Part shown: positions 9,123 through 36,352 of the stretch, in pieces
Position numbering within the stretch: position 1 is the stretch's first letter
How the letters are laid out: each line of letters begins with the position of its first letter
Assembly: GCA_903844825.1 (NCBI GenBank)
Contig: CAIMVC010000214.1
Location: 1-42,415, forward strand
Direction of reading: 5' to 3'
DNA length: 42,415 nucleotides
Source of the DNA: an uncultured Burkholderiales bacterium
GTDB lineage: Bacteria > Pseudomonadota > Gammaproteobacteria > Burkholderiales > Burkholderiaceae_C
Notes under the pieces: model-generated
Seen by the model: only the letters and a program-made list of their open reading frames with translations
What the model was told of the DNA's origin: nothing
Database searches by the model: none
Position numbers and translations under genes: made by a program

Positions 9123-9980
9123 TTAGTCGCGCTGGCTGGCCACCAAATGCGAGATTGTTTGCGCCGACCGCAGCAGGGCGGGCAGCATGGTCTCCTGCAT
9201 CACCTTGGCGCTGCTGCGGTTGGCCTGGCCACTGATGTTCAGGGCGGCCACGGTGCGCCCGCGCCGGTCGGTCACGGCGGCAGCCATTGAGATCAGGCCT
9301 TCTTCGAGCTCTTGGTTGACCAGGCACCAGCCCAGCTTGCGAGCGCTGCGGACCTTGGTCAAAAGCTCTTGTGCGTCGGTCACCGTGTGGCGCGTCAAGG
9401 CCATGGGCTTGCTGGCCTCGATGCGGCTTTGTACCTCGGCATCGCTCAGGCCTGCCAGCAGCACCCGTCCCAGCGAGGTGCAGTAAGCCGGCAAGCGCGA
9501 GCCCACGCCCAGGCTGATGCTCATGATCTTGTGGGTGGACACCCGCAGCACGTAAACGATGTCGGTGCCTTCGAGTACGGCCGCCGAGCAGGATTCGCCA
9601 ACTTCCGTCGCCAGCGCGTCCATCACTGGCTCGGCCAGGTTCCAGATCGGCATCGTCGACAGGTAGGCAAAGCCTAGGTCGAGAATGCGCGGTGTCAGCT
9701 CAAACTGTTTGCCTTCGCTGCTGACGTAGCCCAGGGTTTGCAGGGTCAGCAAGATGCGGCGAGCGCCGGCCCGGGTCAGACCGCTGCGGGCGGCAACTTC
9801 GCTGAGGGTTTGTCTGGGTGCCTCGGCGCTGAAGGAGCGGATCACCTGCAGGCCGCGGGCGAAAGACTGCACGTAACTGTCGCCTGGCGCCGGACCGATG
9901 GCTTGTACAGGGGTGGGGGCGCCCATCTTGTCGGGATCGACGGTGGCTTGGGGTGCTGCGGTGCTTGCGCGGGTTGCCAT
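9123..9980 (-). CDS. IclR-family regulator of the 3-oxoadipate genes (PcaR/PcaU/PobR type)
   Basis: This is a 285-residue IclR-type regulator. The winged helix-turn-helix lies at about residues 40-105 (LSEVAARSGLTRAGARRILL is the recognition part). The C-terminal effector domain carries family signatures such as YCTSLGRVLLAGL and GLISMAAAVTDRRGRTVAALN. The subgroup with this pattern includes PcaR, PcaU and PobR, which respond to 3-oxoadipate, protocatechuate or 4-hydroxybenzoate. It is transcribed divergently from pcaI, with 110 bases between starts that hold a three-half-site operator. It therefore most likely controls pcaIJF, and perhaps the dioxygenase units. The effector is inferred. Confidence 0.88.
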   Translation of the reverse strand: MATRASTAAPQATVDPDKMGAPTPVQAIGPAPGDSYVQSFARGLQVIRSFSAEAPRQTLSEVAARSGLTRAGARRILLTLQTLGYVSSEGKQFELTPRILDLGFAYLSTMPIWNLAEPVMDALATEVGESCSAAVLEGTDIVYVLRVSTHKIMSISLGVGSRLPAYCTSLGRVLLAGLSDAEVQSRIEASKPMALTRHTVTDAQELLTKVRSARKLGWCLVNQELEEGLISMAAAVTDRRGRTVAALNISGQANRSSAKVMQETMLPALLRSAQTISHLVASQRD

Positions 9981-10011
9981 GGCCTGAAAAATCTCCTAAA
10001 ATTCATTATAC

Positions 10012-10035
10012 GAACATTTGTTCTTATGCCGAACA
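10012..10035. promoter_or_regulatory. Three-half-site operator for the IclR regulator
   Basis: GAACA (10012-10016) and TGTTC (10019-10023) form a palindrome with a 2-base spacer. A third GAACA (10031-10035) stands as a direct repeat 19 bases from the first. Two of the three half-sites extend to GAACAAA. The known Acinetobacter PcaU operator also has three repeats, two inverted plus one direct. The site lies in the divergent iclR-pcaI region, 56 bases before the pcaI start, so it could control both genes. Confidence 0.65.
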
Positions 10036-10090
10036 AAATGGCGTATCTAACCCACACGGCGTCAAATCGTCGTCCCCGGAGACTGAGTAC

Positions 10091-10792
10091 ATGATCAACA
10101 AAATAGCGCCCTCCATCGCCGCGGCGCTGGACGGCCTGAAGGACGGCGCCACCGTCATGATTGGCGGCTTTGGCACAGCCGGCATCCCCAACGAGCTGAT
10201 TGACGGTCTGATTGCCCAGGGCGCCAAGGACCTGGTGCTAGTCAACAACAACGCCGGCAACGCCGAGACGGGTCTGGCGGCCTTGCTCAAGGCCGGTCGC
10301 GTGCGCAAGATCATCTGTAGCTTTCCGCGCCAGGCTGACAGCTACGTGTTCGACGAGCTCTATCGCAGCGGCAAGCTGGAGCTTGAGCTGGTGCCGCAGG
10401 GCAATCTGGCTGAGCGCATCCGCGCCGCAGGTGCCGGCATCGGCGCTTTTTTCTCGCCCACAGGCTTTGGCACTGACCTGGCCAAGGGCAAGGAAACGCG
10501 TGAAATCAACGGCAAGCAGTACGTGCTGGAACTGCCGATTTACGGCGACCTGGCCTTGATCAAAGCCGAGCGCGGTGACCGCTGGGGGAACCTGGTCTAC
10601 CGCAAGGCCGCTCGCAATTTCGGCCCGGTGATGGCCACTGCGGCGCGCAAAACCGTGGCCACTGTGCATGAGATCGTCGAACTGGGCGGGCTCGACCCCG
10701 AAAACATCATCACCCCAGGCATCTTCGTCAGCAAGATCGTCAAGATCGACCGCGTCGCCACGCAGGCCGGCGGTTTCAAGAAGGCAGCATAA
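10091..10792 (+). CDS. pcaI: 3-oxoadipate CoA-transferase, subunit A
   Basis: This is the 233-residue alpha subunit of a class I CoA-transferase (EC 2.8.3.6), which with PcaJ moves CoA from succinyl-CoA to 3-oxoadipate. The glycine-rich GGFGTAGIPN at residues 25-34 and the CoA-transferase segment CSFPRQADS are present. The length is normal. The ATG at 10091 has GGAGAC upstream. The open frame extends further 5' but crosses the operator, so the longer start is unlikely. It is separated from pcaJ by two bases. It takes the 3-oxoadipate formed by maleylacetate reductase (21538-22596). Other 3-oxoacids cannot be excluded, but the pairing with a PcaF-type thiolase favours 3-oxoadipate. Confidence 0.92.
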   Translation: MINKIAPSIAAALDGLKDGATVMIGGFGTAGIPNELIDGLIAQGAKDLVLVNNNAGNAETGLAALLKAGRVRKIICSFPRQADSYVFDELYRSGKLELELVPQGNLAERIRAAGAGIGAFFSPTGFGTDLAKGKETREINGKQYVLELPIYGDLALIKAERGDRWGNLVYRKAARNFGPVMATAARKTVATVHEIVELGGLDPENIITPGIFVSKIVKIDRVATQAGGFKKAA

Positions 10793-10794: not shown

Positions 10795-11436
10795 ATGACT
10801 TACACCAAACGCAGCAAAGACGAACTCGCCAAGCGGGTGGCGCAGGACATTCACGACGGCGCCTACGTCAACCTGGGCATCGGCATGCCGACCCTGGTGG
10901 CCAACCATTTGCCGGCCGGCGTGGAAGTCGTTCTTCACAGCGAAAACGGCATCCTGGGGATGGGCCCGGCGCCGGCCGAGGGCGAAGAAGACTACGACCT
11001 GATCAACGCCGGCAAGCAGCCCGTGACCCTGCTCCAGGGAGGCGCCTTCTTTCACCATGCTGACAGTTTTGCCATGATGCGCGGCGGCCACCTTGACATT
11101 TGCGTGCTGGGCGCGTTTCAGGTCAGCGCCACAGGCGATCTGGCCAACTGGCATACCGGTGAAAAAGACGCTATTCCCGCCGTGGGCGGTGCGATGGATC
11201 TGGCCATTGGCGCCAAGCAGACCTGGGTCATGATGGATCTGCTGACCAAAAAGGGCCAGAGCAAGGTGGTGTCTGCGTGCAGCTATCCGCTCACCGGCAT
11301 TGGCTGCGTCAAGCGCATTTACTCTGAACTGGCCACGCTCGAGTGCAGCCCCCAAGGCCTCAGGCTGATCGACAAGGTGGACGGTCTGGAACACGCCGAG
11401 CTGGAAAAGTTGGTCGGTCTGCCGATCGCCGCCTGA
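10795..11436 (+). CDS. pcaJ: 3-oxoadipate CoA-transferase, subunit B
   Basis: This is the 213-residue beta subunit of the CoA-transferase. The catalytic glutamate lies in SENGILGMGP (E50), which forms the enzyme-CoA thioester in class I transferases. NLGIGMPTLV near residue 26 is also a family signature. It starts two bases after pcaI and precedes pcaF by 43 bases, forming a compact pcaIJF unit. It works as a heterocomplex with PcaI in the cytoplasm. Confidence 0.93.
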   Translation: MTYTKRSKDELAKRVAQDIHDGAYVNLGIGMPTLVANHLPAGVEVVLHSENGILGMGPAPAEGEEDYDLINAGKQPVTLLQGGAFFHHADSFAMMRGGHLDICVLGAFQVSATGDLANWHTGEKDAIPAVGGAMDLAIGAKQTWVMMDLLTKKGQSKVVSACSYPLTGIGCVKRIYSELATLECSPQGLRLIDKVDGLEHAELEKLVGLPIAA

Positions 11437-11479: not shown

Positions 11480-12685
11480 ATGACTTCACAAGCCTTTATC
11501 TGCGACGCCATCCGCACCCCCTTTGGTCGCTACGGCGGCGCCCTGTCCGGCATTCGCACCGACGACCTCGGTGCCATTCCCCTGCGCGCCCTGATGGCAC
11601 GTAACCCCAACGTTGACTGGGCCGCCGTCACCGACGTGATTTATGGCTGCGCCAACCAAGCTGGCGAAGACAACCGGAACGTGGCCCATATGTCCAGCCT
11701 GCTGGCCGGCCTGCCTTTCGAGTTGCCGGGCGCTACCATCAACCGGCTCTGCGGCTCCGGGCTCGATGCCCTGGGTACTGCTGCGCGCGCGATCAAGTCC
11801 GGCGAAGCTGGCCTGATGATTGCCGGTGGCGTCGAAAGCATGAGCCGCGCCCCTTTCGTCATGCCCAAGGCAGAAAGCGCTTTTAGCCGCGCCAATGCGG
11901 TTTATGACACCACCATCGGCTGGCGCTTTGTCAACAAGCTGATGAAAGAAAAGTACGGCGTCGACGCCATGCCAGAGACTGCCGAAAACGTGGCCACCGA
12001 CTACAAGATCGAGCGCGAAGCGCAGGATCGCATGGCCCTGGCCAGTCAGATGAAGGCCGTGGCGGCTCAAAAAGCGGGCCATCTGGCCCGTGAAATTGTC
12101 GCCGTGACAATTCCCCAGAAAAAGGGCGATGCCGTCGTGGTCGACAAGGACGAGCATCCCCGCGAAACCAGCCTGGAAGCGCTGGCCAAACTCAAAGGGG
12201 TGGTGCGGCCCGACGGCACCGTGACCGCCGGTAACGCCAGTGGCGTGAACGACGGCTCTTGCGCACTGCTGCTGGCCGACGAAGCCAGCGCAGCAAAAAA
12301 TGGCCTGACCCCGCGCGCCCGCGTGGTCGGCATGGCCACGGCCGGCGTGCCGCCTCGCATCATGGGCATGGGGCCCGCGCCAGCGACCCGCAAGGTGCTC
12401 GAATTGACCGGCCTGACCCTGGCCCAGCTCGACGTGATCGAGCTCAATGAAGCCTTTGCCGCACAAGGCTTGGCCGTGCTGCGCGACCTGGGCCTGCAGG
12501 ACGACGACGCGCGCGTCAACGCCTGGGGTGGGGCCATTGCCCTGGGCCATCCGCTCGGGGCCTCGGGCGCGCGCCTGGCCACCACCGCGGTCAACCGCCT
12601 GCACGCCACCGGCGGACGCTACGCGCTGTGCACCATGTGCATCGGCGTGGGCCAGGGGATTGCGCTGATTCTCGAGCGGGTCTGA
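11480..12685 (+). CDS. pcaF: 3-oxoadipyl-CoA thiolase
   Basis: This 401-residue thiolase cleaves 3-oxoadipyl-CoA with CoA to succinyl-CoA and acetyl-CoA, the last step of the 3-oxoadipate pathway. The catalytic residues are all present: C91 in NRLCGSG, H357 in ALGHPLGASGAR and C387 in CTMCIGVGQG. Its length matches PcaF, and the beginning AFICDAIRTPFGRYGGAL is characteristic of 3-oxoadipyl-CoA thiolases. It is the last gene of pcaIJF, and a terminator-like hairpin follows at 12742. It lies far from the dioxygenase genes but completes their pathway. Confidence 0.94.
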   Translation: MTSQAFICDAIRTPFGRYGGALSGIRTDDLGAIPLRALMARNPNVDWAAVTDVIYGCANQAGEDNRNVAHMSSLLAGLPFELPGATINRLCGSGLDALGTAARAIKSGEAGLMIAGGVESMSRAPFVMPKAESAFSRANAVYDTTIGWRFVNKLMKEKYGVDAMPETAENVATDYKIEREAQDRMALASQMKAVAAQKAGHLAREIVAVTIPQKKGDAVVVDKDEHPRETSLEALAKLKGVVRPDGTVTAGNASGVNDGSCALLLADEASAAKNGLTPRARVVGMATAGVPPRIMGMGPAPATRKVLELTGLTLAQLDVIELNEAFAAQGLAVLRDLGLQDDDARVNAWGGAIALGHPLGASGARLATTAVNRLHATGGRYALCTMCIGVGQGIALILERV

Positions 12686-12895: not shown

Positions 12896-13819
12896 ATGAC
12901 GAAGCGGATTGGATGGATTGGTCTGGGGCGCATGGGCGAAGCCATGGCCAAGCGGCTGATCAAGGCCGGGCACCCGGTCAGCGTGTGGAACCGCACCGCC
13001 GCCAAGGCGGCGCCCCTGGCCGACTACGGCGCCACCCTTGTGGCAGCCAAGCAGGATCTGGCCTCTTGCGACTTTGTCTTCACCATGGTGTCGACCACCG
13101 ACGACTTGAAAGAAGTGTTGTTTGCCGAGGGCGGGCTGGTCGCGGGCAGCGTCAAGCCGAAGGTGGTGATCGACAGCTCGTCGATCTCCCAGGAAGGCTC
13201 GGCGGAGATCCGCGAGCGCCTCGAGGCCATGGGGGTTGGCTATCTCTGCAGCCCGGTTTCGGGCAACGCCAAGGTGGCCAAGGCCGGCAAACTGCTGCAA
13301 GTGGCGTCGGGCCCCAAAGCGCTTTACGAAGAGGTCGAGCCCTGCCTGCAGGCCATGGCCCGCAAGGTGATGTGGGTCGGCGAGGGCGAACTGGCCCGCG
13401 TCTGGAAGATCGCGCACAACACCATGTTCGGCGTGGTGATTCAGAACTTGTGCGAGATCACGGTCATGGCCGAAAAGGCCGGTATCCCGCGCCATGTGTT
13501 CCTCGAGAGCATCAACGACTCGGTGCTGGGCTCGATGTACACCCGCTACAAAACGCCCACGCTGACCAACCTGACCTTTGACCAGGTCACTTTCACACCC
13601 AAGCTGCTGCTCAAGGACATGGACCTGGGCCTGGGCGCCGCCAAGGCTTATGGCGTGCCGATGCCCGCCGCTGCCGCCACCCGCGAATCGGTGGCCCGCA
13701 TGGTCGGGCGCGGTTACGAAGACATCGACTTTGCTGTGCTGCTGCAAGAAACCGCGGCCGATGCGGGGCTGGTGCTCAAGTCTGAAAATGTCAAGATGAG
13801 CGACGGGCTGGAGTCCTGA
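12896..13819 (+). CDS. NAD(P)-dependent beta-hydroxyacid dehydrogenase (3-hydroxyisobutyrate dehydrogenase family)
   Basis: This 307-residue enzyme has the Rossmann motif GLGRMG at residues 9-14. It has the family substrate motif SPVSGN around 118 and the catalytic lysine K171 in WKIAHN. These are the marks of the beta-hydroxyacid dehydrogenases (3-hydroxyisobutyrate, tartronate semialdehyde and related enzymes), which oxidise a beta-hydroxyacid or reduce the semialdehyde. The start has a good ribosome site AAGGAAG. It heads the unit that continues with the amidohydrolase two bases after its stop. A second family member lies at 20654. The substrate is unknown; a ring-derived semialdehyde is plausible. 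Confidence 0.87.
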   Translation: MTKRIGWIGLGRMGEAMAKRLIKAGHPVSVWNRTAAKAAPLADYGATLVAAKQDLASCDFVFTMVSTTDDLKEVLFAEGGLVAGSVKPKVVIDSSSISQEGSAEIRERLEAMGVGYLCSPVSGNAKVAKAGKLLQVASGPKALYEEVEPCLQAMARKVMWVGEGELARVWKIAHNTMFGVVIQNLCEITVMAEKAGIPRHVFLESINDSVLGSMYTRYKTPTLTNLTFDQVTFTPKLLLKDMDLGLGAAKAYGVPMPAAAATRESVARMVGRGYEDIDFAVLLQETAADAGLVLKSENVKMSDGLES

Positions 13820-13821: not shown

Positions 13822-15198
13822 ATGAGCGACGCCGCCAGGGGAGGGCGCACCCTCATCAAGGGTGCCACCGTCATCACGATGGATGCGCAGGGCGATCTGG
13901 CCCTGGGCGACGTGTTGGTCACGGGTGATCAGATCACCGAGATTGCTCCCGTCATTCACGCTGACGACGCCCAGGTGATCAATGCCACTGGCTACATCAT
14001 CATTCCCGGTCTGATCAACGCTCACATGCACACCTGGCAGACGGCGCTGCGCGGTCTGGCCGCCAACTGGACCTTGCTGGAATATTTCCAGAAAATGCAC
14101 GCCGGCCTGGCGACGGTGTTCGAGCCTGAAGACCTGCACATTGCCACCTTGGTGGGTGCCATCAATCAGCTCAATTGCGGCACCACCACGCTGGCCGACT
14201 GGTGCCACAACAACCCCACACCGGCGCACAACGACGCCGCCATCGACGGCCTGCTGCAGTCCGGCATTCGCGCCGCTTTTTTCCATGGCACGCCCAAGCC
14301 CGACCCCAAGCCGGGCCAGCGCCCGTTCTGGGAGACGCCGCATCCGCGCGCTGAAACCGAGCGTTTGCTGCGGGCGCACCAGGGACGTGAACTGCTGAGC
14401 GTTCAGGTGGCCGTGCTGGGGCCTCACTACGCCACCATGGAGGTGGCACTGCACGACTTCGCCATGGCCAAGGAGTTGGGGCTGATTGCCTCCATGCACC
14501 AGGGCGGCGGGCCGGCGCGCACCCCCGAGGGTTGGACCCGGCTGGAGGCTGAGGGCCTGCTGGGTGAGCAGATCAACATCGTGCATGGGCACGCGCTCGA
14601 TGACCTTCAGCTTCGACGTTTTTGCGAGCTGGGTCTGAGCTTTTCTGCGGCCGCGGAAAGCGAGATGAGCCAGGGCCATGGCCACCCGATCACCGGCCGC
14701 TTGCGCAGCTTCGGTCGCGCGCCCTCGCTGGGTGTGGACCTCGAAAGCGTCATGAGTGGCGACATGCTCACGCAAGCCCGCGTGGCCTTGGGCATGCAAC
14801 GCACGCTGGACAACGCGGCTTATCGCCTGGCGCACGGCAGTATTCCGCCGACCTCGACGATCACCGCCCGCGAAGCCCTGTCCTGGGTGACCATCGAAGG
14901 CGCTCGCATGCTCAAGCAGTCCCACCGTATTGGTTCGCTGGCGGCAGGCAAGCAGGCTGACCTGGTGCTCATTCGCGCCAGTGACCTGAACATGCAGCCG
15001 GTGCATGACGCTGTCAACAGCGTGGTGATGCAGACCTCGCTGGCCAATATCGACAGCGTCATGGTGGCCGGCCAATGGAAGAAGCGTCACGGGCAGTTGC
15101 TGGGCGTGGACCTGGCTCCGCGTCTGGCGCAATTGAAGGCGTCGGGCCAGAAGATCACGCAGGCCATGGGGCTCCAGGATCCGGACACTGGCGCATGA
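13822..15198 (+). CDS. Amidohydrolase-superfamily hydrolase (AtzA/TrzN/SsnA-like)
   Basis: This is a 458-residue metal-dependent hydrolase of the amidohydrolase superfamily. The metal site is recognisable: HMH at residues 68-70, H226 in SMHQGG, the conserved histidines H255/H257 in VHGHALD, and D306 in GVDLES. The layout fits the mononuclear subtype with deaminases and chlorohydrolases that act on purines, pyrimidines and s-triazines. There is no signal peptide. It starts two bases after the dehydrogenase stop and precedes a Bug protein gene and a molybdenum hydroxylase. Hydroxylation of an N-heterocycle followed by hydrolytic deamination or dehalogenation would fit, but this is inference. 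The substrate cannot be deduced. Confidence 0.85.
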   Translation: MSDAARGGRTLIKGATVITMDAQGDLALGDVLVTGDQITEIAPVIHADDAQVINATGYIIIPGLINAHMHTWQTALRGLAANWTLLEYFQKMHAGLATVFEPEDLHIATLVGAINQLNCGTTTLADWCHNNPTPAHNDAAIDGLLQSGIRAAFFHGTPKPDPKPGQRPFWETPHPRAETERLLRAHQGRELLSVQVAVLGPHYATMEVALHDFAMAKELGLIASMHQGGGPARTPEGWTRLEAEGLLGEQINIVHGHALDDLQLRRFCELGLSFSAAAESEMSQGHGHPITGRLRSFGRAPSLGVDLESVMSGDMLTQARVALGMQRTLDNAAYRLAHGSIPPTSTITAREALSWVTIEGARMLKQSHRIGSLAAGKQADLVLIRASDLNMQPVHDAVNSVVMQTSLANIDSVMVAGQWKKRHGQLLGVDLAPRLAQLKASGQKITQAMGLQDPDTGA

Positions 15199-15229: not shown

Positions 15230-16183
15230 ATGAAAAACGTTTTGATCGCAATCGCCGTTGCCTGTTCGCTAGGCACGGCCCTGGCCCAGGCACCGGCCTA
15301 TCCGAGCAAGGTCATCAAGATCATCGTGCCGTTCACGGCCGGTAGTGCCACCGACATCATGGCCCGCATCGTTGGCGAGAAGCTCAGCAGCAGCCTGGGT
15401 CAGTCGGTGGTGGTTGAAAATCGTCCGGGCGCGGGCGGCACCCTGGGTGCAGCGCAAGTAGCCAAGAGCGATCCGGACGGCTACACCCTGCTGGTGGTCT
15501 CCACCGGCCATGTGGTCAACCCGGCGCTTTACGGCAATCTGAGCTACGACACGCTGGGTGACTTTGCGGGTGTGACGCCGTTGGCTGCCTTGCCGAGCGT
15601 GCTGGTGGTCGGCGCTGGCAGCCCCATCAAAACAGTCAGTGATCTGATTGCTGCAGCCAAGGCCAAGCCCGGCCAGATGAACTACGCGTCAGCCGGCGTG
15701 GGCAGCGCCACCCATGTGAACGCCGAAAAGTTCCGTGCGGCTGCCAACATCCAGATCACCCATATCCCCTTCAAGGGTACGCCCGAGACGATTGTCGAGA
15801 CCAGCGCCGGCCGGGTCGATTTCATGTTCACGCCCGTACTCGCCTCAATCCCCTCGATCCGCGACAACCGCATGCGCGCCATTGCCGTGAGTACCGCCAA
15901 GCGATCGGCGGCCCTGCCCGATGTGCCCACCGTGGCCGAAGCCGGCATGCCTGGCTTCGTGTTTGACTTCTGGATCGGTTTGCTGGCGCCGGCCAAGACA
16001 CCCAGGGCTATCGTCAACAAGCTCAATGCCGAGGTCAAGACCATCCTGGCTCAGGCCGATGTCAAGGACCGTCTGGCCAAGCTGGGCGCCGACCCCATGC
16101 CCATGACGCCGGAGCAGTTTGACGGCTACATGAAAGAAGAATTCACGACCCTGGGTGCGGTCATGAAGTCCGCACCCAAATAA
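15230..16183 (+). CDS. Bug-family solute-binding protein (TctC-like), first of three
   Basis: This 317-residue periplasmic protein has a signal peptide cleaved near ALAQA. It shows the Bug/TctC fold markers: YPSKVIKIIVPF at the mature start, VVVENRPGAGGTLG at about 64-77 and DGYTLL. The start has the strong ribosome site AGGAG. Bug proteins bind carboxylates or other small organic compounds, and may work with TctAB permeases or in sensing. No TctA or TctB gene is in the window. It lies between the amidohydrolase and the Mo-hydroxylase, so its ligand is probably the substrate of that unit. Confidence 0.9.
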   Translation: MKNVLIAIAVACSLGTALAQAPAYPSKVIKIIVPFTAGSATDIMARIVGEKLSSSLGQSVVVENRPGAGGTLGAAQVAKSDPDGYTLLVVSTGHVVNPALYGNLSYDTLGDFAGVTPLAALPSVLVVGAGSPIKTVSDLIAAAKAKPGQMNYASAGVGSATHVNAEKFRAAANIQITHIPFKGTPETIVETSAGRVDFMFTPVLASIPSIRDNRMRAIAVSTAKRSAALPDVPTVAEAGMPGFVFDFWIGLLAPAKTPRAIVNKLNAEVKTILAQADVKDRLAKLGADPMPMTPEQFDGYMKEEFTTLGAVMKSAPK

Positions 16184-16227: not shown

Positions 16228-16839
16228 ATGACCTCCGTCGCCTTTGAGTTGCTGATCAACGGCCAGTCGCAGACGGTGACAGCTGAGGAGAGCACCCCAC
16301 TGCTATACGTCTTGCGCGACAGCTGCGGCCTCAAGGGCACGCGCTTTGGCTGTGGTGCAGCCCAGTGCGGCGCCTGCCATGTGCTGGTCGACGGCGTTTC
16401 GGTGCCGTCGTGCGACACGCCCCTGTGGTCCGTCCAGGGCAAAGCGGTGACCACCGTCGAAGGACTCGCCACGGCTTGGGCAAATAGCGCCACCTTGGCG
16501 GGCAGCCAGGGACGCGAAGCGACAAGCGTGGGGGCCACCTCCCCAGCGCAGGGCCGCCCCGAACTGGGGAGCGCCCCCTCGGGGGGCAGCACAGCACAAG
16601 AAGTGGCGAGCGTGGGGGCATCCACTCTCCAGCAAGCCTTCATTGACGAGCAGGCCGCGCAGTGTGGTTACTGCCTGTCGGGCATTTTGATCACGGCGGC
16701 CGCCCTGCTCGCGCGTCACCCTGACCCCAGCGAGGATCAGGTACGGCAGGCGCTGGACGGCCATCTTTGCCGCTGTGGCAGCCACAATCGCATCGTGCGG
16801 GCGGTCCTGCGCGCCGCCAGGTCGGGGCGTGGCGCATGA
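16228..16839 (+). CDS. [2Fe-2S] subunit of a molybdenum hydroxylase, with an in-frame repeat insertion
   Basis: This 203-residue protein has both iron-sulfur domains of xanthine-dehydrogenase-family small subunits. The plant-ferredoxin type uses C42, C47, C50 and C62. The helical type uses C146, C149, C181 and C183. It passes electrons from the molybdenum cofactor of the large subunit. Relatives are about 150-160 residues. The extra length is a low-complexity linker at about residues 84-132, between the two domains, encoded by a GC-rich repeat (16490-16621). All eight cluster cysteines are retained, so the protein may still work. It overlaps the large subunit gene by 4 bases (ATGA). Closest relatives are probably the IorA and nicotinate-dehydrogenase small subunits. 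Confidence 0.88.
   Translation: MTSVAFELLINGQSQTVTAEESTPLLYVLRDSCGLKGTRFGCGAAQCGACHVLVDGVSVPSCDTPLWSVQGKAVTTVEGLATAWANSATLAGSQGREATSVGATSPAQGRPELGSAPSGGSTAQEVASVGASTLQQAFIDEQAAQCGYCLSGILITAAALLARHPDPSEDQVRQALDGHLCRCGSHNRIVRAVLRAARSGRGA
16490..16621. repeat. GC-rich interspersed repeat inserted within a coding region
   Basis: The stretch contains two copies of AGCGTGGGGGC (16525-16535 and 16609-16619). It also has a hairpin GCCCCC-TCG-GGGGGC (16573-16587) and CCCC-GAACT-GGGG (16557-16569). This pattern resembles palindromic repeats I recall from intergenic regions of Comamonadaceae genomes. Here it lies inside the [2Fe-2S] subunit gene, in frame and with no stop codon. It encodes a Ser/Gly/Ala-rich linker. 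The boundaries are approximate. Confidence 0.65.
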
Positions 16840-28724: not shown

Positions 28725-29522
28725 TTGAAAATTGGCAAGGCCACTGCGCCCCGCTCAGCGATATGTACCTCGAACGAAAACACGATTGTGGTGCGAGGCA
28801 ATGACCTGGCCCGTGACCTGATTGGGCACATTAATTTCGGTGACTATTTTTTCCTGCTGGTGACCGGTCGCCGTGCGGATGCCGCTACCAGTGCCGTGCT
28901 CAATGCCACGCTGGTGGCGATTGCCGAACATGGCCTGGTGCCTAGCGTGCAGGCAGCGCGCATGACGCTGGCTGCTGCGCCTGATGCCATGCAAGGCGCG
29001 GTGGCTGCCGGCATTCTGGGTTCGGGTTCGGTGATTTTGGGTGCGTCGGAAACCGCCGGTCGGCTGTACCTCGCGATCGAAAAAGAAGCCGAAAAACACG
29101 CGGGTGACCTGCACGCTGCGGCCCGTGTGGTGGTGGCCGACCTGCGCGCCCGCAGGTTGCCGATTGCCGGCTACGGCCACCCCGAGCACAAGGCGGGTGA
29201 TCCCCGGGTCGGGCGTTTGTTCGAGGTCTCGGCACAGGCCGGCGCTGGTCAGCGCTATGTGGAGATCGCCAAGGTGGTCGAGGCGATCATCCCCGAGGTC
29301 GTTGGCAAGCCGCTCAAGCTCAATGTGTCAGGCGCTATTCCGGCGGTCCTGTTGGGGGTGGGTTTCCCGGTCAATGCGCTCAAGGGGGTTCCGATGCTGG
29401 CGCGCACGGCCAGCCTGATTGCGCACCTCAACGAAGAGTTGGACGATCCGATTGGTTTTGCGCTGTCTTACCAGGCCTCGCGCGAACAGGAATACACCGG
29501 CGCCATGCCTTCGGGCAGCTGA
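28725..29522 (+). CDS. Citryl-CoA lyase/citrate synthase-like protein
   Basis: This 265-residue protein resembles the citrate-synthase-like domain of citryl-CoA lyase and ATP-citrate lyase. EHGLVPS carries H69 and GHPEHKAGDPR carries H152/H155, both at expected catalytic positions. The segment LNVSGAIPAVLLGVGFP has serine (S202) where ATP-citrate lyase has the catalytic aspartate (LNVDG). The TTG at 28725 has GGGAGA about 7 bases upstream. It lies 34 bases after dioxygenase 2 and 8 bases before the CaiB-type gene. It probably makes or breaks a C-C bond in a CoA thioester, but the chemistry is uncertain given the replaced residue. Confidence 0.8.
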   Translation: MKIGKATAPRSAICTSNENTIVVRGNDLARDLIGHINFGDYFFLLVTGRRADAATSAVLNATLVAIAEHGLVPSVQAARMTLAAAPDAMQGAVAAGILGSGSVILGASETAGRLYLAIEKEAEKHAGDLHAAARVVVADLRARRLPIAGYGHPEHKAGDPRVGRLFEVSAQAGAGQRYVEIAKVVEAIIPEVVGKPLKLNVSGAIPAVLLGVGFPVNALKGVPMLARTASLIAHLNEELDDPIGFALSYQASREQEYTGAMPSGS

Positions 29523-29530: not shown

Positions 29531-30709
29531 ATGGCCAAGGTACTTCATGATCTCAAGGTCGTCGAGCACGGCACCTTCATTACCGGGCCGGCCGCCTCCA
29601 TGCTGCTGGCCGACCTGGGTGCCGACGTGGTCAAGGTCGAACTGCCGGGAACGGGTGATCCGTTTCGGGCCTTCAAGGGCGAGTTGTACAGCCCGCATTT
29701 TCAGACCTACAACCGCAACAAGCGCAGCATCACGCTCAACACCAAGGACGCGGCCGATCTGGCCCGCTTTGATGAGCTGATCCGCGAAGCAGACGTCTAC
29801 ATTCAGAATTTTCGACCCGGCGTAGCCGAGCAAATTGGTGCGGGCGAGGAGCGCCTGCGCAAAATCAACCCGCGGCTGATTTACTGCGCCATCAGCGGTT
29901 TTGGTCCCACCGGCCCCTACGCCGGTCGGCCCAGTTATGACACGGTGGCCCAGGCGGCCAGCGGCTTTTTGGGCTTGTTGATCAACCCGGCCAATCCGCG
30001 TGTGGTCGGGCCGGCGCTGGCCGATGCGCTGACCGGTTTTTATGCCGCCTATGGCGTGCTGGGCGCCGTGCATGAGCGGCACGCCACGGGTGTCGGCCGC
30101 AAGGTCGAGGTGTCGATGCTCGAAGCCATGACGCACTTCAACCTGGATGCGTTCACGCACCTGTTCTCGGCCGACGAGGTCATGGGTCCGTTCAGCCGGC
30201 CCAGCGTGTCGCAGTCTTATGTCATGCAGTGTTCTGATGGCCTGTGGCTGGCGCTGCATATGTCGTCGCCGCCCAAGTTCTGGGAAGGCCTGGCGACGGC
30301 TATGAACCGCCATGATATTTTTGAAGACCCGCGCTTTGCCACGCGGCAGGCGCGTATCGAGCATCAGGAGGCGCTGATGCATGTGTTGGCCGGCATCTTC
30401 AATCAGCACACACGTGCCCACTGGTGCGCGCTGCTGTTGGCACAGGACGTGCCGCATTCACCCATGTACACCACGGCCGAGGTGCCTTTGGACCCGCAGG
30501 CGCAGCACCTTCAATTGTTTGTCGAAACACCGCATCCGGTGTCCGGCACCTTCAAGACCGTGCGCTCGCCGGTGTCGTTTGATGGTGAGCGCTCGCTGGA
30601 TGTCACGGCGCCGCCCTTGCTGGGTCAGCACAACGCCGAGTTTGCGCGCGGCTGGGCTGCGCGTGCCGCCTACCAGCTGACGCCAGCAGCCAACGAGAGC
30701 AAGGCATGA
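29531..30709 (+). CDS. CaiB/BaiF-type class III CoA-transferase
   Basis: This 392-residue protein is a family III CoA-transferase. The N-terminal ADLGADVVKVE region and NRNKRSITLN are characteristic, as is D165 in ADALTGFYAAYG, the likely acyl-anhydride-forming aspartate. The length is normal. It would move CoA between organic acids in the cytoplasm. It follows the citryl-CoA-lyase-like gene by 8 bases and overlaps the next gene by 4 bases, so activation of an acid for the lyase-like enzyme is a natural reading. The acid is unknown. Confidence 0.9.
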   Translation: MAKVLHDLKVVEHGTFITGPAASMLLADLGADVVKVELPGTGDPFRAFKGELYSPHFQTYNRNKRSITLNTKDAADLARFDELIREADVYIQNFRPGVAEQIGAGEERLRKINPRLIYCAISGFGPTGPYAGRPSYDTVAQAASGFLGLLINPANPRVVGPALADALTGFYAAYGVLGAVHERHATGVGRKVEVSMLEAMTHFNLDAFTHLFSADEVMGPFSRPSVSQSYVMQCSDGLWLALHMSSPPKFWEGLATAMNRHDIFEDPRFATRQARIEHQEALMHVLAGIFNQHTRAHWCALLLAQDVPHSPMYTTAEVPLDPQAQHLQLFVETPHPVSGTFKTVRSPVSFDGERSLDVTAPPLLGQHNAEFARGWAARAAYQLTPAANESKA

Positions 30710-31710
30710 TGTCGTTGGTCACTGTCATGCGCCGGGCGCAGCACCGCACGGCAGCCTGCTGGGGGGCTGTGCTGCTTCTGGCAGCAACGCTGGCTGTGCC
30801 TGCCCATGCGCAGGACTTCCCGAGCCGCGCGCTCAAACTGGTGGTGCCCTTTGGGGCGGGGACCACCACCGACATGGTGGCGCGCATCGTGGCCGAGGCC
30901 CTGGCCAAGCCGCTGGGCCAGGCCGTCGTGGTGGAAAACCGGGCTGGCGCCGGTGGTGTGATTGGCTCAGACCAGGTCGCCAAGTCAGCGGCCGATGGCT
31001 ACACCCTCGTCATGGGGACGGTGGGAACGCACGCCATCAACGCCTCCCTGTACAAAAAATTGCCCTACGACCCGATCAAGGATTTCGCACCCATCGCTTT
31101 TGCCGGCTACACGCCGACCTTGCTGGTGGTGGCTGCCAATTCACCTTTGAGGAGTGTCAAGGATCTGGCTGCGCAGGCGGCTCGGCCGGGCAGCCATGTG
31201 AGCTTTGCCTCCGCAGGCAACGGCACGTCCGGCCACCTGGCCGGCGAGCTGCTCAAGGCTCGCGTGGGCGGCGAGATGGTCCACGTCCCCTACAAGGAAG
31301 GCGCACTGGCGCTGACGGACGTGATCGGCGCCCAGGTGCAGTTCATGTTCTATCACCCGGCGGCGGTGCTGCCGCATATCAAGTCGGGCAAGTTGCGCGC
31401 GCTCGGTGTGTCGAGCGCACGCCGCAGTGCATCCGCCCCCGAGGTGCCAGCCATTTCCGAGCTTGGGCACGACTTTGATCTGGTGGCCTGGTTCATGTTG
31501 TATGCACCGGCCGCCACGCCGGCGCCTGCGCTGGTGCGTTTGCGTGATGCCACCGCGCAGGTACTGGCCAACCCCGAGGTGGTGGCCAAGCTGGCCAGCC
31601 AGGGGCTGGAGTTACGCAGCATGAAGCCCGACGAGCTGACCGGCTTTGGCCGTACCGAAATCGCCAAGTGGGCGGAGCTGGTCAAACGCTCGGGCGCTCA
31701 GGTCGATTAG
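30706..31710 (+). CDS. Bug-family solute-binding protein (TctC-like), third of three
   Basis: This is a 334-residue secreted protein with a signal peptide (hydrophobic AVLLLAATLAVPAHAQ, cleavage near AHA-QD). FPSRALKLVVPFGAGTTTDMV, VVVENRAGAGGVIG and DGYTLV mark it as a Bug protein. The ATG overlaps the CaiB-type stop (ATGA), and a second ATG follows immediately. It is clearly different from the other two Bug proteins in the window. No TctAB partner is encoded. It may supply the substrate sensed or transported for the dioxygenase 2 unit. Confidence 0.9.
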   Translation: MMSLVTVMRRAQHRTAACWGAVLLLAATLAVPAHAQDFPSRALKLVVPFGAGTTTDMVARIVAEALAKPLGQAVVVENRAGAGGVIGSDQVAKSAADGYTLVMGTVGTHAINASLYKKLPYDPIKDFAPIAFAGYTPTLLVVAANSPLRSVKDLAAQAARPGSHVSFASAGNGTSGHLAGELLKARVGGEMVHVPYKEGALALTDVIGAQVQFMFYHPAAVLPHIKSGKLRALGVSSARRSASAPEVPAISELGHDFDLVAWFMLYAPAATPAPALVRLRDATAQVLANPEVVAKLASQGLELRSMKPDELTGFGRTEIAKWAELVKRSGAQVD

Positions 31711-31761: not shown

Positions 31762-32973
31762 ATGAAGTTTTTACGTCGCTCGTTTATGAGTCGAGTTCTG
31801 TCAACGGTCACTGTGCTGGGCGCGGCGCTGACCCTGGCTTCGACCGCCCAGGCCCAGGCGCCGCTGCGAATCGGCAGCACGCTGGCATTGACCGGGCCGC
31901 TGTCGTCGACGGCCTTGACCCACAAGCTGGTGGGCGAGATTTATGTCGAGCAGATCAATGCCAAGGGTGGCATTTTGGGTCGCAAGCTCGAATGGATCGT
32001 CAAGGACGACCAGTCCTAGCCCGAACTGGCCCGCACGCTGTACGAGCAGTTGGTGACCTCGGACAAGGTCGATTTGCTGATGGGCCCCTACGCGACCGGC
32101 GCCATCTTGTCGGCCATGGGTGTGGCTCAGCGCTACAACAAGGTTCTGGTGCACCACACCTTCGGTATTCCTTCGCTGGCCAAGTACGACATGCAGTTTC
32201 CAGCCTGGTCGCTGGGTGCCGATCCGCAGACTACTGTGCCGAACACCCTGTTCGACGCGCTGGCAGCCTCGCCCAAACCACCGAAGACGATTGCCATCGT
32301 CACCAGCAAATTTCCGTCCATTCACTTCATGTCGCTGGGCGGTCGGGAAGTTGCCAAGAAACGCGGTCTGCAGGAAGTGCTGTTCCTCGAGTGGGATTTT
32401 GGTAACCGCGACTTCGGCCCGATTGCCGCGCGCGTCAAAGATGCCAAGCCTGATCTGGTCTGGATCGGTGACATTGGCCTGGAGGGCAACATGCTGCTCG
32501 ACGCCATGAAGAAGATCGACTACACGCCACCGCTGCACTTTCACTTGTACCCGGCCCCCGGGCCGATGAGCAAGGCTGCCGACGGCAACAATGCCCTGGC
32601 CGTCACCATTTTTGAGGAGCATGCACCGTTTACCAACAACCCCGCAGCGGCGCAGTTCATCAAGATTTTCAATGAGCGGGCCACCAAGCTCAACCTGCCA
32701 GACACCAGCGTGGAAGTGCAGGCTGCCGCTTCGTACTCGGCCTGGCAGATTCTGGAGGCCGGTATTCGCGGCGCCAACAGCTTTGACGACAAAGCCATTG
32801 CCGCCTGGCTGCGCAAGAACCGCGTAGAGACCATTCATGGTCGTCTGCGCTTTGACGGTCCCGGCAACTATGGCGACGACCTGATGAAGATCAAGCAGGT
32901 GCAAAACGGCAAATGGAACGTGGTGTACCCGGCCCAGTTCGCGCCCCCTGGCGTGAAGCTGCAGGTCAAGTAA
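31762..32973 (+). pseudogene. Branched-chain-type ABC transporter binding protein interrupted by TAG
   Basis: The gene encodes a Leu/Ile/Val-type (LivK-like) periplasmic binding protein of 403 residues if the internal stop is read through. The start has a strong ribosome site (GAGGAGACAAGT) and a signal peptide ending near AQA. Codon 86 is TAG (32017-32019), in KDDQS-stop-PELARTLYEQ. The frame continues intact through residues 87-403 with normal receptor sequence. Relatives usually have a lysine here, so one A-to-T change (AAG to TAG) could explain it. No frameshift is visible. It lies just upstream of livH- and livM-like genes. Sequencing error, a recent mutation or an amber suppressor would all fit. 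Confidence 0.85.
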
Positions 32974-33030
32974 TCACCGAGCCTAGCCCCCAGCAAAGCC
33001 CCGAGCAAAGACCAGGAAAGTGGGTTGCAG

Positions 33031-33888
33031 ATGAGTTTCCCGAGCTTTAATTTATTGGCGCAATCCATCCTCTCGGGGATATTCATTGGCGGCCTGTATG
33101 GGTTGATCGGTCTCGGTCTGGGTTTGACCTGGGGCTTGTTGCGTCAGATCAACTTGTCCCATTTCGGGCTGGTTTTTCTGGCCGCCTACCTCAGCTATCA
33201 CATGGCCACGGTGTGGCATGTGGACCCGCTGTTAACGCTGCTGATATTGCCGCCGCTGTTTTTTGTGATCGGTGTGGGCATGCAGTGGGTTTTGTCGCGA
33301 TTTGAAATCTCACCTTTCAATTCGCTGCTGGTGACCTTCGGCATCACCGTGGTCATTGAGAGCGGCATTCAGGCCGTGTGGACGGCCGACTTTCGTCGCC
33401 TCGAGACCCACTACAACGACCTGAAGTTCAGTGTGGGCTCGCTTTATATTCCGGTGCCAGAGCTGGTAACGCTGCTCTTGTCGGTCGGTATTGCTACGTC
33501 GATCTGGGCGGCCATGCGTTTTACCGATCTGGGCAAAGCACTGCGCGCGATGGCCGAGGACGGACAGATCGCCGCGGCCTTTGGCATCAACCAAAAAGGC
33601 ATGTCGCTGATGCTCGCCGGCATTTGCGCGGCCTTGGCTGCAGTGGCCGGAATTTGTCTGGCCTTGACTTTCACGCTGACCCCGTCGCAGATATTCGCGT
33701 GGGTTGGTGTGGTCTTTGCTGCGGTCATGCTTGGGGGCCTGGGCAGTGCGGTGGGGCCTTTGGTGGCGGGCGTCATCATCGGCGTGAGCGAAGCCATCAC
33801 CATGGCCGTGGCGTCGCCCTCATGGGCCCCCATTGTCTCGTTTTCGCTGCTGATCGTGATGTTGTTGTTGCGCCCCGGGAAGATCTAG
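33031..33888 (+). CDS. Branched-chain-type ABC transporter permease (LivH-like)
   Basis: This 285-residue inner-membrane protein has about eight hydrophobic segments. GLYGLIGLGLGLTWGLLRQINLSHFG, in the first half, is the typical LivH region (about residues 20-45). The later GVVFAAVMLGGLGSAVGP is also characteristic. The ATG at 33031 has AGGAAAG upstream. It follows the interrupted binding-protein gene by 57 bases and precedes the fused permease-ATPase by 3 bases. It forms the membrane pore with the LivM part of the next protein. Related systems import amino acids, amides or aromatic acids. Confidence 0.9.
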   Translation: MSFPSFNLLAQSILSGIFIGGLYGLIGLGLGLTWGLLRQINLSHFGLVFLAAYLSYHMATVWHVDPLLTLLILPPLFFVIGVGMQWVLSRFEISPFNSLLVTFGITVVIESGIQAVWTADFRRLETHYNDLKFSVGSLYIPVPELVTLLLSVGIATSIWAAMRFTDLGKALRAMAEDGQIAAAFGINQKGMSLMLAGICAALAAVAGICLALTFTLTPSQIFAWVGVVFAAVMLGGLGSAVGPLVAGVIIGVSEAITMAVASPSWAPIVSFSLLIVMLLLRPGKI

Positions 33889-33891
33889 AAC

Positions 33892-35643
33892 ATGAATAAA
33901 ACGGTGACAGGCATTCTGGCGGCCGGCGCGATGCTGGCCAGCGTGCCCTGGCTGGGACTGCCAGCTTTTTATGAGTCGTTTTTGTACCTGATTTGCCACT
34001 GGATGATCCTGGCGCTGTCGTGGAACATCCTGTCAGGGTATTCAGGTTATTTTTCGTTTGGACATGGTGCCTTTTTTGGCATGGGCATGTACACCTCGGC
34101 CGGCCTGTCTGCCAATTTGAACTGGCCTTTTTTGTGGACGCTGCCGGTGGCCGCGCTGGTGGCGGCTTTGCTGGGTGTGGGGCTGGGGGCGGTGGTTTTC
34201 AGGGTCAAGGCGGTGCGTGGCGAGTTGTTCGCGCTGCTCACGCTGGCCATTACCTTTGTGGTGGGCACGATTGTGCTGAACACCCGCATTGATGGCGGTC
34301 CTGGTATCTACCTCAACGCAGTTCCGGTGCCCGCAATGGGGCCCACGCCTTCGTCGTCGATTTATCTGATGGCGCTGGCAGGCGCGGTCCTCACGATGCT
34401 CATTGCCTACCGCGTGCAGTCGTCCAAGCTCGGCACTGGTTTGTTCGCCATTCACGACGATGAAGACGTGGCCGAGGTCATGGGTGTGCCAACCTTTCGC
34501 TACAAGCTGCTGGCGTTCGGGATTTCGTGTGCGCTGGCCGGTCTGGCGGGTGGCATTCATGCGCTCTTTGTGTCCTACGTCACGGCGGGCGAGACTTTCA
34601 CGATCGTGGTGCCCCTGACGGTGGTGCTCATGAGCGTGCTCGGTGGTACGCGGCACTGGGCGGGGCCTGCCGTGGGTGCGACCGCGATCACCTGCCTGCT
34701 GTATTACTTCACTGCGGGCAACAATCCGGTGGCCGGCAAGGCGGCGGTGGGCGTGATTTTGATAGTCGTGATTTTGTTCATGCCCAACGGCATCCTGGGT
34801 TACTTTCTCAAGCGGCGTGCAGCGGTACGGGTCGACAACGCGCCGGGCGCTGCGTCGGTACCGCCTGCGATCGCGGCGGTGCCGCTGGTTTCGGCGCCGA
34901 CGCGCGAGACGGCTTCACGGGTCTTGCTGGAAGTACAGGACCTGTCCAAGGCCTTCAAGGGCGTGCAGGCACTCGAGAAGGTCAGCCTGCAGGTCATGGA
35001 GGGCGAAATCCTCGGGCTCCTGGGCCCTAATGGTTCGGGCAAGTCGACCTTCATCAATGTGGTCAGCGGCCATTACCCGACCAGTGGCGGCGGCATTTTC
35101 TTTGAAGGACGGCAGCTCGCCGGCCTGCCCGCGCACCGCATCGCGCAGTCGGGAATTGCGCGCACCTATCAAATTCCAAGGCCTTTTGCGCACATGAGCG
35201 TGCTGCAAAACGTGGCCATGGTCGCCATGTTCGGCGGCGCTGCCCTGAACCACCAGCAGGCCACCGAGGAGGCCTGGAAATGGCTCGAATTCACCGGCTT
35301 GCAGGACAAGGCCAATGCCTTGCCGGATGACCTCAATTTGCACCAGCGCAAGTTCCTGGAGCTGGCCCGAGCCTTGGCTTCGCGTCCGCGCCTGGTGCTG
35401 CTTGACGAGGTCTTGTCGGGCCTGACGCCCGGGGAGATCAATGAGGCAATTGAGCTGATTCGCAAGATCCGTGAACGGGGTGCCACCATCGTCTTTGTGG
35501 AGCACGTGATGCGTGCGGTGATGGCACTGGCTGATCGCGTGGCCGTACTGAACCACGGCAAATTGATCGCTGTTGGACCGGCCCGGGAGGTCATGAGCCA
35601 TCCCGAAGTCGTTAGCGCCTATCTGGGGACACCGCATGCTTGA
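33892..35643 (+). CDS. Fused LivM permease and LivG ATP-binding protein
   Basis: This 583-residue protein joins two transporter parts. Residues 1 to about 310 are a LivM-type permease (GYSGYFSFGHGAFFGMG is a signature). After a Pro/Ala-rich linker, residues about 345-583 are a LivG-type ATPase. The ATPase has Walker A GPNGSGKST at about 377-385, Walker B RLVLLDE at about 500 and a switch histidine in VFVEHVM. The signature LSGGQ is replaced by LNLHQRK at about 480, a variant seen in this family. The fusion is intact in frame. It overlaps livF by 8 bases. Such fusions are known in Burkholderiales. Confidence 0.93.
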   Translation: MNKTVTGILAAGAMLASVPWLGLPAFYESFLYLICHWMILALSWNILSGYSGYFSFGHGAFFGMGMYTSAGLSANLNWPFLWTLPVAALVAALLGVGLGAVVFRVKAVRGELFALLTLAITFVVGTIVLNTRIDGGPGIYLNAVPVPAMGPTPSSSIYLMALAGAVLTMLIAYRVQSSKLGTGLFAIHDDEDVAEVMGVPTFRYKLLAFGISCALAGLAGGIHALFVSYVTAGETFTIVVPLTVVLMSVLGGTRHWAGPAVGATAITCLLYYFTAGNNPVAGKAAVGVILIVVILFMPNGILGYFLKRRAAVRVDNAPGAASVPPAIAAVPLVSAPTRETASRVLLEVQDLSKAFKGVQALEKVSLQVMEGEILGLLGPNGSGKSTFINVVSGHYPTSGGGIFFEGRQLAGLPAHRIAQSGIARTYQIPRPFAHMSVLQNVAMVAMFGGAALNHQQATEEAWKWLEFTGLQDKANALPDDLNLHQRKFLELARALASRPRLVLLDEVLSGLTPGEINEAIELIRKIRERGATIVFVEHVMRAVMALADRVAVLNHGKLIAVGPAREVMSHPEVVSAYLGTPHA

Positions 35644-36352
35644 AGTTAACCAAATTTCGGTCAATTACGGCGCTGCACCGGCACTTTGGGATGTGTCCTT
35701 GCAGGTAGGCAAGGGCGAGTTGGTGTGCGTGGTCGGCCCCAATGGTGCGGGCAAGACGACCTTGATCAACGCCATCGCCGGCATGCACCGCGTGCGCGAT
35801 GGCAGCTTGCGTTTTAATGGCAGCGACATCACGCAGCTGGCCAGCCACCGGTTTTGCGAAGCGGGTATCGCCATCGTGCCCGAAGGGCGTCGGCTGTTCA
35901 CGCAAATGACGGTGCACGACAACCTGGAGCTGGGCAGCTTCATCGCGCCGGCCAAGGCCAGGCGCCAGGAAACACTGGACTATGTGCTGACGCTGTTTCC
36001 GGCGCTCAAGGTCAAGTTGCAGAGTCAGGCGGGGTCGCTGTCTGGCGGGCAGCAGCAGATGGTCGCGATTGGCCGTGCGCTGATGGCTCGACCGGGCTTG
36101 CTGCTGCTGGACGAGCCTTCGCTCGGCCTGGCGCCGGCCATTGTGCTGGACATGTTTGGCGCCATTCGCAAGATCAACGCCGAAGGTACCTCGGTGCTGC
36201 TGGTCGAGCAAAACGTGGCGATGGCGATGGCGTTGGCCAACCGCGCCTATGTGATGGAAGAAGGTCGCATCGTGGCGCAGGGACAAGCCAGTGAGTTGCT
36301 TAGCCGTCCGGAAATCCAGAAGGCTTATTTGGGCCTGGATGTGGCAATTTGA
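35636..36352 (+). CDS. Branched-chain-type ABC transporter ATP-binding protein (LivF-like)
   Basis: This 238-residue ATPase has Walker A GPNGAGKTT at about 33-41. The signature LSGGQQQM is at about 137, and Walker B LLLLDEPSLGLAP at about 156. It is the LivF subunit of the transporter formed with the LivH-like and fused LivM-LivG proteins. It overlaps the fused gene by 8 bases and ends the transporter unit. Length and motifs are normal. The transporter genes follow the catabolic genes directly, so a pathway substrate is a likely cargo. Confidence 0.93.
   Translation: MLEVNQISVNYGAAPALWDVSLQVGKGELVCVVGPNGAGKTTLINAIAGMHRVRDGSLRFNGSDITQLASHRFCEAGIAIVPEGRRLFTQMTVHDNLELGSFIAPAKARRQETLDYVLTLFPALKVKLQSQAGSLSGGQQQMVAIGRALMARPGLLLLDEPSLGLAPAIVLDMFGAIRKINAEGTSVLLVEQNVAMAMALANRAYVMEEGRIVAQGQASELLSRPEIQKAYLGLDVAI

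Follow-up and report, generated by a model that had tools for sequence, protein, structure and literature searches.

A SnoaL-fold protein as candidate decarboxylase for the entry step of a hydroxyquinol gene island in an uncultured Burkholderiales bacterium

A hydroxyquinol island without a visible entry oxygenase

How hydroxyquinol is formed is the question raised by a gene island located at positions 9123 to 36352 in a stretch of 42,415 nt from an uncultured Burkholderiales bacterium. This stretch, referred to as the window, is a whole contig (C214) of the metagenome-assembled genome G000, which is 89% complete and consists of 464 contigs. Genes were mapped by codon position and by reading. 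Pfam scans covered 28 called proteins of the island, with livK represented only by the larger of its fragments, as well as 14 proteins from the flanks, a coverage that excludes a few short open reading frames. NCBIfam models were run on most of the island, and MaoC was covered by the NCBIfam scan only. Positions given below refer to genes on the plus strand unless stated otherwise.

A complete lower pathway for hydroxyquinol, as claimed in the initial annotation, was confirmed. The best solved match of both dioxygenases, HQD1 (23640..24584) and HQD2 (27728..28690), is the hydroxyquinol 1,2-dioxygenase 1tmx (E values 2.8e-79 and 1.5e-79, respectively), and both retain the Tyr/Tyr/His-x-His motifs of hydroxyquinol-type intradiol dioxygenases, which we take to be the iron ligands. 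Maleylacetate reductase (MAR; 21538..22596) matches 3jzd, deposited as an iron-containing alcohol dehydrogenase, with an E value of 2.7e-147, and the solved maleylacetate reductases 3hl0 and 3w5s with 1.9e-116 and 1.1e-113. The 3-oxoacid CoA-transferase subunits A and B, PcaI (10088..10792; TIGR02429) and PcaJ (10795..11436; TIGR02428), and the 3-oxoadipyl-CoA thiolase PcaF (11480..12685; TIGR02430) each exceed the NCBIfam cut-offs, by which the 3-oxoadipate CoA-transferase and thiolase functions are accounted for.

A classical entry oxygenase, also reported initially as not visible in the window, was indeed absent: no PF01494 flavin monooxygenase (FMO), Rieske or Amidohydro_2 protein was detected in the Pfam scans of island and flanking proteins. 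A second hydroxyquinol cluster in G000 with a monooxygenase of its own was considered and rejected, since the dioxygenase gene on contig C190 (L069) is surrounded by FAH and Bug genes and a reading of that 20 kb revealed no monooxygenase. The broader claim that no hydroxyquinol-forming enzyme is recognisable could not be upheld, because the protein encoded at 25255..25875 is homologous to a solved gallate decarboxylase over residues 3-203. This SnoaL-fold protein, formerly counted among "small barrel proteins", is a putative decarboxylase and, judged by its sequence, a good candidate for the entry step.

A SnoaL-fold protein related to gallate decarboxylase

The protein contains the Pfam domain SnoaL_4 and gave a single weak NCBIfam match below the cut-off. 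Against solved structures, residues 3-203 matched PPP2 of Madurella mycetomatis (7jmr, E 1.2e-26; further entry 7jmv) and the gallate decarboxylase AGDC1 of Arxula adeninivorans (6w54, E 5.3e-22; further entry 7kd9). When the AlphaFold model was submitted to Foldseek, ranks 1 to 10 were occupied exclusively by PPP2 and AGDC1 (E 2e-11 to 1.3e-8); LinA and scytalone dehydratase were obtained with E values of 1.2e-3 and 3.0e-3. The protein is thus a candidate cofactor-free hydroxybenzoate decarboxylase of AGDC1/PPP2-like type.

According to the structural study on AGDC1, catalysis and substrate binding involve the H86-D40 dyad, a W35/W61 clamp, R39, T60, Y146, Y150 and Q192, with R39 holding the carboxylate and T60, Y150 and Q192 holding the hydroxyls; E88 is a ligand of K+, and the exchange E88A abolishes activity (PMC7862292). 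From 44 loci, the window included, 28 distinct SnoaL sequences were obtained. The His-Asp dyad (H86, D40), the Trp clamp (W35, W61), R39, T60, I84, Y150 and Q192 (AGDC1 numbering) are retained in all 28. The catalytic signature is also present in 12 out of 12 sequences of a wider set, Rhodococcus included; nine relatives from plasmids and two from Comamonadaceae carry it. In two unrelated NTF2-family proteins, the set is not retained.

Linkage to dioxygenase and maleylacetate reductase genes

When 72,556 plasmid records were searched at the protein level, 43 contained a SnoaL relative, 18 of these at 60-80% identity. Nine plasmid loci were opened, eight from this identity band and the one from Rhodococcus at 59.9%. 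In eight of the nine, where the relatives share about 60-70% identity, HQD and MAR genes are located within 10 kb of the SnoaL gene. SnoaL, MAR and HQD are contiguous in Shinella, Caballeronia and Rhodococcus, the order in Agrobacterium is SnoaL-YciI-MAR-HQD, and two Sinorhizobium loci show SnoaL-HQD with MAR nearby. In Paraburkholderia hospita and Cupriavidus P-10, a flavin monooxygenase is also found near SnoaL, HQD and MAR. Among 369 genomes of the window's class, a SnoaL match at E<=1e-50 was detected only in G000 and G049. Within 87 genomes of the genus, an HQD-like gene (E<=1e-40, identity down to 41%) is present in 36 of 36 genomes with SnoaL (>=78% identity), whereas of the 51 genomes lacking SnoaL 12 possess one (p 3e-14, a statistic that ignores relatedness).

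The remaining neighbours of the plasmid genes are diverse. In S. meliloti, a class II dehydroquinase (DHquinase_II), an enolase-superfamily protein (MR_MLE), a TIM-barrel protein (AP_endonuc_2) and an FAD_binding_2 oxidoreductase scoring below the PF01494 cut-off are encoded. The Rhodococcus locus contains two GCV_T-family proteins, which we take to be possible O-demethylases, a P450 and folate genes, and in Agrobacterium a gentisate-like gene set precedes the SnoaL block. Neither the island flavin monooxygenase nor the HsaA/GraA-type monooxygenase gave a tblastn match (E<=1e-8) in any of the seven stretches L221-L227. These neighbourhoods suggest differing routes to a hydroxylated benzoate among bacteria.

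Proposed pathway

Homology, active-site conservation and linkage of the SnoaL protein form the basis of the reading favoured here, in which the island would specify a hydroxyquinol pathway entered by non-oxidative decarboxylation of a hydroxylated benzoate. We assign to it a probability of roughly 0.6. The Asp24-His69 dyad and the Trp19/Trp45 clamp of the SnoaL protein would protonate the ring and release CO2, with Arg23 holding the hydroxylated benzoate. In the best reading, the reaction would release hydroxyquinol or a direct precursor of it, and conversion of 2,4,5-trihydroxybenzoate to hydroxyquinol would be the simplest fit. Ring opening by HQD1 and HQD2 would give maleylacetate, which MAR would reduce to 3-oxoadipate, and PcaIJ and PcaF would then produce succinyl-CoA and acetyl-CoA. 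A nitroreductase-family protein (27089..27673; PF00881, PRK05365 over cut-off) may convert oxidised hydroxybenzoquinone back to hydroxyquinol; this role as hydroxybenzoquinone reductase is assumed by us from analogy. All steps upstream of the acid are proposals. The enzymes making it would vary, with class A FMOs in several relatives, candidate dehydratases in Sinorhizobium and candidate O-demethylases in Rhodococcus; in the window, the amidohydrolase, the two beta-hydroxyacid dehydrogenases HIBADH1 and HIBADH2 and the molybdenum hydroxylase IorAB are the candidates.

Several observations weigh against this proposal. The AlphaFold model is of moderate quality (mean pLDDT 75.9), with values below 50 in the segment 21-39, to which R23 and D24 belong, and it superposes loosely on PPP2 and AGDC1 (TM 0.5-0.6, rmsd about 9). 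Unlike the two fungal enzymes, the SnoaL protein, which is bacterial and linked to HQD and MAR, has Leu in place of the K+ ligand Glu88 and Arg in place of Tyr146, both changes being found in 28 of 28 sequences. The K+ site is therefore not conserved, activity should not be assumed, and the group is to be regarded as a sister subfamily rather than as a strict member of AGDC1/PPP2. Agdc1p is described in its characterisation as rejecting 2,3-, 2,4- and 2,5-dihydroxybenzoate (PMC5605622). Since this range is narrow and 2,4,5-trihydroxybenzoate is not among the tested substrates found there, the proposed acid is a guess; the Glu88 change and the narrow range are the main cautions. Linkage also has exceptions. 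Bradyrhizobium elkanii (L225) carries SnoaL without HQD within 10 kb, the SnoaL gene of G049 is about 280 kb away from HQD1, and L143, L152 and L166 have HQD1 and MAR but no SnoaL within the stretch. Finally, some plasmid stretches annotate FAD-dependent oxidoreductases, a P450 and, at the edge of L222, a cut monooxygenase. Because of these oxidases, and because the PLSDB gene tables for the plasmid stretches are incomplete, a neighbouring hydroxylase is possible.

Sister islands

A scan of named genomes with an alignment of the NMT1/SsuA-like protein revealed 46 loci, a few distant ones included, which are labelled Polaromonas, Curvibacter, Hylemonella, Rhodoferax, Limnohabitans and other Comamonadaceae/Burkholderiales. 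Eighteen loci of the same genus (L074-L091) share the order HIBADH1-amidohydrolase-Bug1-IorAB-NMT1-AhpD-HIBADH2-MAR, in some cases with single gene losses or contig ends. In the window, this part consists of HIBADH1 (12896..13819; PF03446/PF14833), a COG0402-type amidohydrolase (13822..15198; PRK08204 over cut-off, nearest solved structures 3hpa, 7ww2 and AtzA), the TTT (TctC/Bug) solute-binding protein Bug1 (15230..16183; PF03401), the two IorAB subunits, the NMT1/SsuA-like protein (18987..20030), an AhpD/CMD-family protein (20037..20654; PF02627), HIBADH2 (20654..21541; PF03446/PF14833) and MAR. The amidohydrolase, the two beta-hydroxyacid dehydrogenases and the AhpD-like protein had already been named in the initial annotation and were all recovered by Pfam or NCBIfam. 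Most of the 18 loci continue with LysR-HQD1-YciI-Dabb-SnoaL-Bug2-nitroreductase or a part of it, followed in some by HQD2. The corresponding genes of the window, besides those described above, encode a LysR regulator divergent from HQD1 (22636..23574, minus strand; PF03466/PF00126), a YciI-family protein (24569..24886; PF03795), a Dabb-domain protein (24895..25215; PF07876) and a second TTT solute-binding protein, Bug2 (26016..27017; PF03401). Since much of the order recurs in 18 loci, the gene combination is not due to chance, and the set does travel as a block. No description of this combination was found in the open-access literature, few subscription journals being covered.

Three loci (L076, L077, L078) have no HQD gene beside the block; HQD1 is located elsewhere in those genomes. 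In L084 (G338), HQD1 and HQD2 are missing from their usual places and SnoaL, nitroreductase and MAR are kept, with an HQD-like gene on another contig. A second amidohydrolase gene follows MAR or NMT1 in ten loci (L076, L078, L088, L097, L098, L100, L120, L128, L129, L139); the scanned copy of L078 belongs to PF04909 (Amidohydro_2), and a Tat- or lipoprotein-like signal was read in the copies viewed.

Alternative explanations

A class A PF01494 FMO (555 aa in L144) is encoded between MAR and LysR, or beside LysR/HQD1, in eight sister islands (L095, L108, L110, L112, L120, L141, L144, L145). The island could accordingly belong to an ordinary resorcinol-type pathway in which the SnoaL protein makes a phenol, e.g. 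resorcinol, from a dihydroxybenzoate and an FMO hydroxylates it to hydroxyquinol, the FMO gene having been lost from the metagenome-assembled genome or left unassembled. Besides the eight islands, the FMOs near SnoaL, HQD and MAR in P. hospita and Cupriavidus P-10 agree with this explanation, and so do the incompleteness of G000 and its content of other PF01494 proteins. G341 of the same genus (L143) contains a cluster for a flavin reductase, an HsaA-type monooxygenase, an amidohydrolase, MAR and HQD, and its order resembles that of the known gamma-resorcylate (tsd/gra) cluster. However, at E<=1e-60 the island FMO has no close counterpart among the PF01494 proteins of G000 (scores being obtained for 16 of 23 candidates), and G375 and G312, both listed as 100% complete, contain HQD1 and SnoaL but no FMO at this threshold. 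HsaA-type monooxygenase gave no match at E<=1e-30 in seven of eight genomes tested, G000 included. The rejection of 2,4-dihydroxybenzoate by Agdc1p (PMC5605622) also argues against it, and a missing FMO is considered rather unlikely.

The gamma-resorcylate/resorcinol pathway resembles the island in having a decarboxylase that feeds HQD and MAR, but its own decarboxylase is of the amidohydrolase type and acts together with a two-component monooxygenase, and neither is among the scanned window proteins: an Amidohydro_2 decarboxylase was not found there, and no hydroxylase at E<=1e-30 was found in G000. The FMO-HQD-Dabb-MAR cluster of Variovorax boronicumulans (L166) has homologues of HQD1, Dabb and MAR as in the window; unlike the window, it includes a class A FMO and shows no SnoaL match within the stretch.

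The SnoaL protein might instead convert an alicyclic precursor of hydroxyquinol, either as an aromatising dehydratase similar to scytalone dehydratase or as a LinA-like lyase. Dyad and fold class are common to these enzymes, as indicated by Foldseek and by PMC7862292, and DHquinase_II, MR_MLE and AP_endonuc_2, encoded beside SnoaL in Sinorhizobium, are dehydratase-type families. Yet the tested sequences retain both the Trp clamp of AGDC1/PPP2 and Arg39, by which the carboxylate is held, and the top Foldseek E value for a decarboxylase is about eight orders of magnitude better than those for LinA and scytalone dehydratase, which makes this assignment improbable.

The molybdenum enzyme was described initially as a flavin-less hydroxylase, and this was corroborated. 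It is composed of an IorA-like 2Fe-2S subunit (16228..16839; PF01799/PF00111) and an IorB-like molybdenum cofactor subunit (16836..18986; PF20256/PF02738), with no FAD subunit adjoining. A defining role in the pathway, as had been implied, is contradicted by the sister islands. IorAB is missing and NMT1 kept in L095, L108, L113, L121 and L133, and L140 and L141 lack IorAB, NMT1 and AhpD together. IorAB was therefore rejected as part of the core, L108, L133, L140 and L141 retaining much of the remainder, and, with many sister islands lacking it, the enzyme looks like an accessory.

The slot between MAR and LysR holds an FMO in none of 14 loci with IorAB versus six of ten without (p 0.0016), which would fit a replacement of the FMO by IorAB as ring hydroxylase taking its hydroxyl from water. 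The 14 loci comprise the window and 13 named ones. The count excludes loci in which MAR or LysR is lacking or lies out of view, among them L116 and L128, in which an FMO was seen, L111, L129 and L098; L157, whose IorAB state is out of view, was omitted as well. Against such a replacement, the loci counted are phylogenetically related, and five of 20 IorB genomes, among the matches listed, also have the FMO (p 0.14 within amidohydrolase carriers, G362 being left out as ambiguous); in G342, the FMO gene and MAR share a contig and are about 8 kb apart. Mutual exclusion of FMO and IorAB, which looked strong for the island slot, thus does not hold at the level of whole genomes. Moreover, islands with neither enzyme exist (L113, L121, L133, L140), and the nearest solved structure of the large subunit is the aldehyde dehydrogenase 8gy3. 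Ring hydroxylation by IorAB is doubtful and, on balance, quite improbable.

A block of amidohydrolase, HIBADH2-like protein, HQD and MAR, often with Dabb and YciI, is also found in Bosea, Skermanella and seven genomes of one other family (L167, L168, L171-L178), the seven being all those with the block among the other 397 genomes of the phylum searched. These blocks differ from the window in that no SnoaL or IorB match was seen in the stretches read and that they adjoin sugar-type ABC transporters and FAD-linked oxidases; a GMC oxidoreductase is present in Paraburkholderia D15 and Variovorax. The initial view that the island is a funnel for an N-heteroaromatic or amino-substituted ring, opened by Mo-hydroxylase and amidohydrolase, can draw on the placement of the amidohydrolase in the deaminase/chlorohydrolase group and on its travelling with HIBADH2-like protein, HQD and MAR, but is very improbable in view of the transporters and oxidases of the outside blocks, an FMO match in three of the seven other-family stretches (L172, L174, L175), the lack of a Mo-hydroxylase large-subunit match beside them and the failure to recognise in the island any enzyme specific for nitrogen removal, or other specific pointer, besides the COG0402-type amidohydrolase.

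Further genes of the island

The NMT1-like protein is conserved from about 19116 to 20030, with 70-83% identity among orthologues of the genus. A function as transporter component was rejected: no permease or ATPase of its kind adjoins in the window, and no signal peptide was seen by eye, no predictor being run. A distant relative (L134) reads as secreted. An enzymatic role is possible because the modelled PBP2 fold resembles not only binding proteins but also the enzymes Thi5 and DszB, the latter a desulfinase. A second decarboxylase could be envisaged from the analogy to 4,5-dihydroxyphthalate decarboxylase.

The AhpD/CMD-family protein proved unsuitable as a marker of synteny, since most relatives occur in other contexts; two (L066, L067) are accompanied by HIBADH1 and PcaF homologues. 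Thirteen relatives from other Burkholderiales (L023-L035) contain an in-frame TGA, L023 also a TAA. The window protein weakly matches the NCBIfam model for YciW-related (seleno)proteins, for which an in-frame TGA is to be expected, and in the relatives this codon probably specifies selenocysteine, as far as can be judged from sequence.

Between its two 2Fe-2S domains, IorA contains an in-frame insert of 45 residues (about 16483-16617), absent from 13 other aligned orthologues. At the DNA level, the insert shares about 79% identity with a repeat that occurs at other places in loci of the genus, L077 and L150 among them.

The island begins with a gene on the minus strand for an IclR regulator of the PcaR/PcaU/PobR family (9123..9980; TIGR02431 over cut-off). 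Downstream of HQD2, genes for a citryl-CoA lyase-like protein (28725..29522; PRK06224 over cut-off), a CaiB-family CoA-transferase (29531..30709; PF02515) and a third TTT (TctC/Bug) solute-binding protein (30706..31710; PF03401) are located. The lyase-like protein, the CoA-transferase and the nitroreductase are island members that had not been named in the initial annotation. A branched-chain-type ABC transporter, consisting of an interrupted livK, livH, a fused livM/livG and livF, is encoded at 31762..36352. The solute-binding protein gene livK is interrupted at codon 86 by an in-frame TAG (32017-32019), across which related loci align unbroken with 82-90% identity; this TAG may be either a genuine nonsense codon or a product of faulty assembly. 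Upstream of the island, a separate set on the minus strand (1383-8433) specifies a fumarylacetoacetase, a cyclase-family protein, an SMP-30 protein, a TRAP transporter and a TetR regulator.

Implications

Beyond the window, a bacterial family of carboxyhydroxyquinol decarboxylases might constitute an unrecognised hydroxyquinol route whose last step proceeds without a ring-hydroxylating oxygenase. In some carriers, the Sinorhizobium plasmids with their 3-dehydroquinate-dehydratase-like, enolase-superfamily and TIM-barrel enzymes beside SnoaL, ring and hydroxyls might even be derived from a cyclic polyol acid by dehydration, without O2. This extension is put forward tentatively, with odds clearly below even. 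The idea of a cyclitol origin of hydroxyquinol is a conjecture from deoxyinosose chemistry.

Cofactor-free polyphenol decarboxylases are of practical interest for bioproduction, as argued for the fungal enzymes in PMC7862292. If the proposal is true, a decarboxylase mechanism known from two fungal enzymes would be extended to bacteria, and a function would be provided for proteins that are encoded next to maleylacetate reductase and dioxygenases and at present carry only the annotation "nuclear transport factor 2 family". The origin of hydroxyquinol in these islands is thereby reduced to a single enzyme assay.

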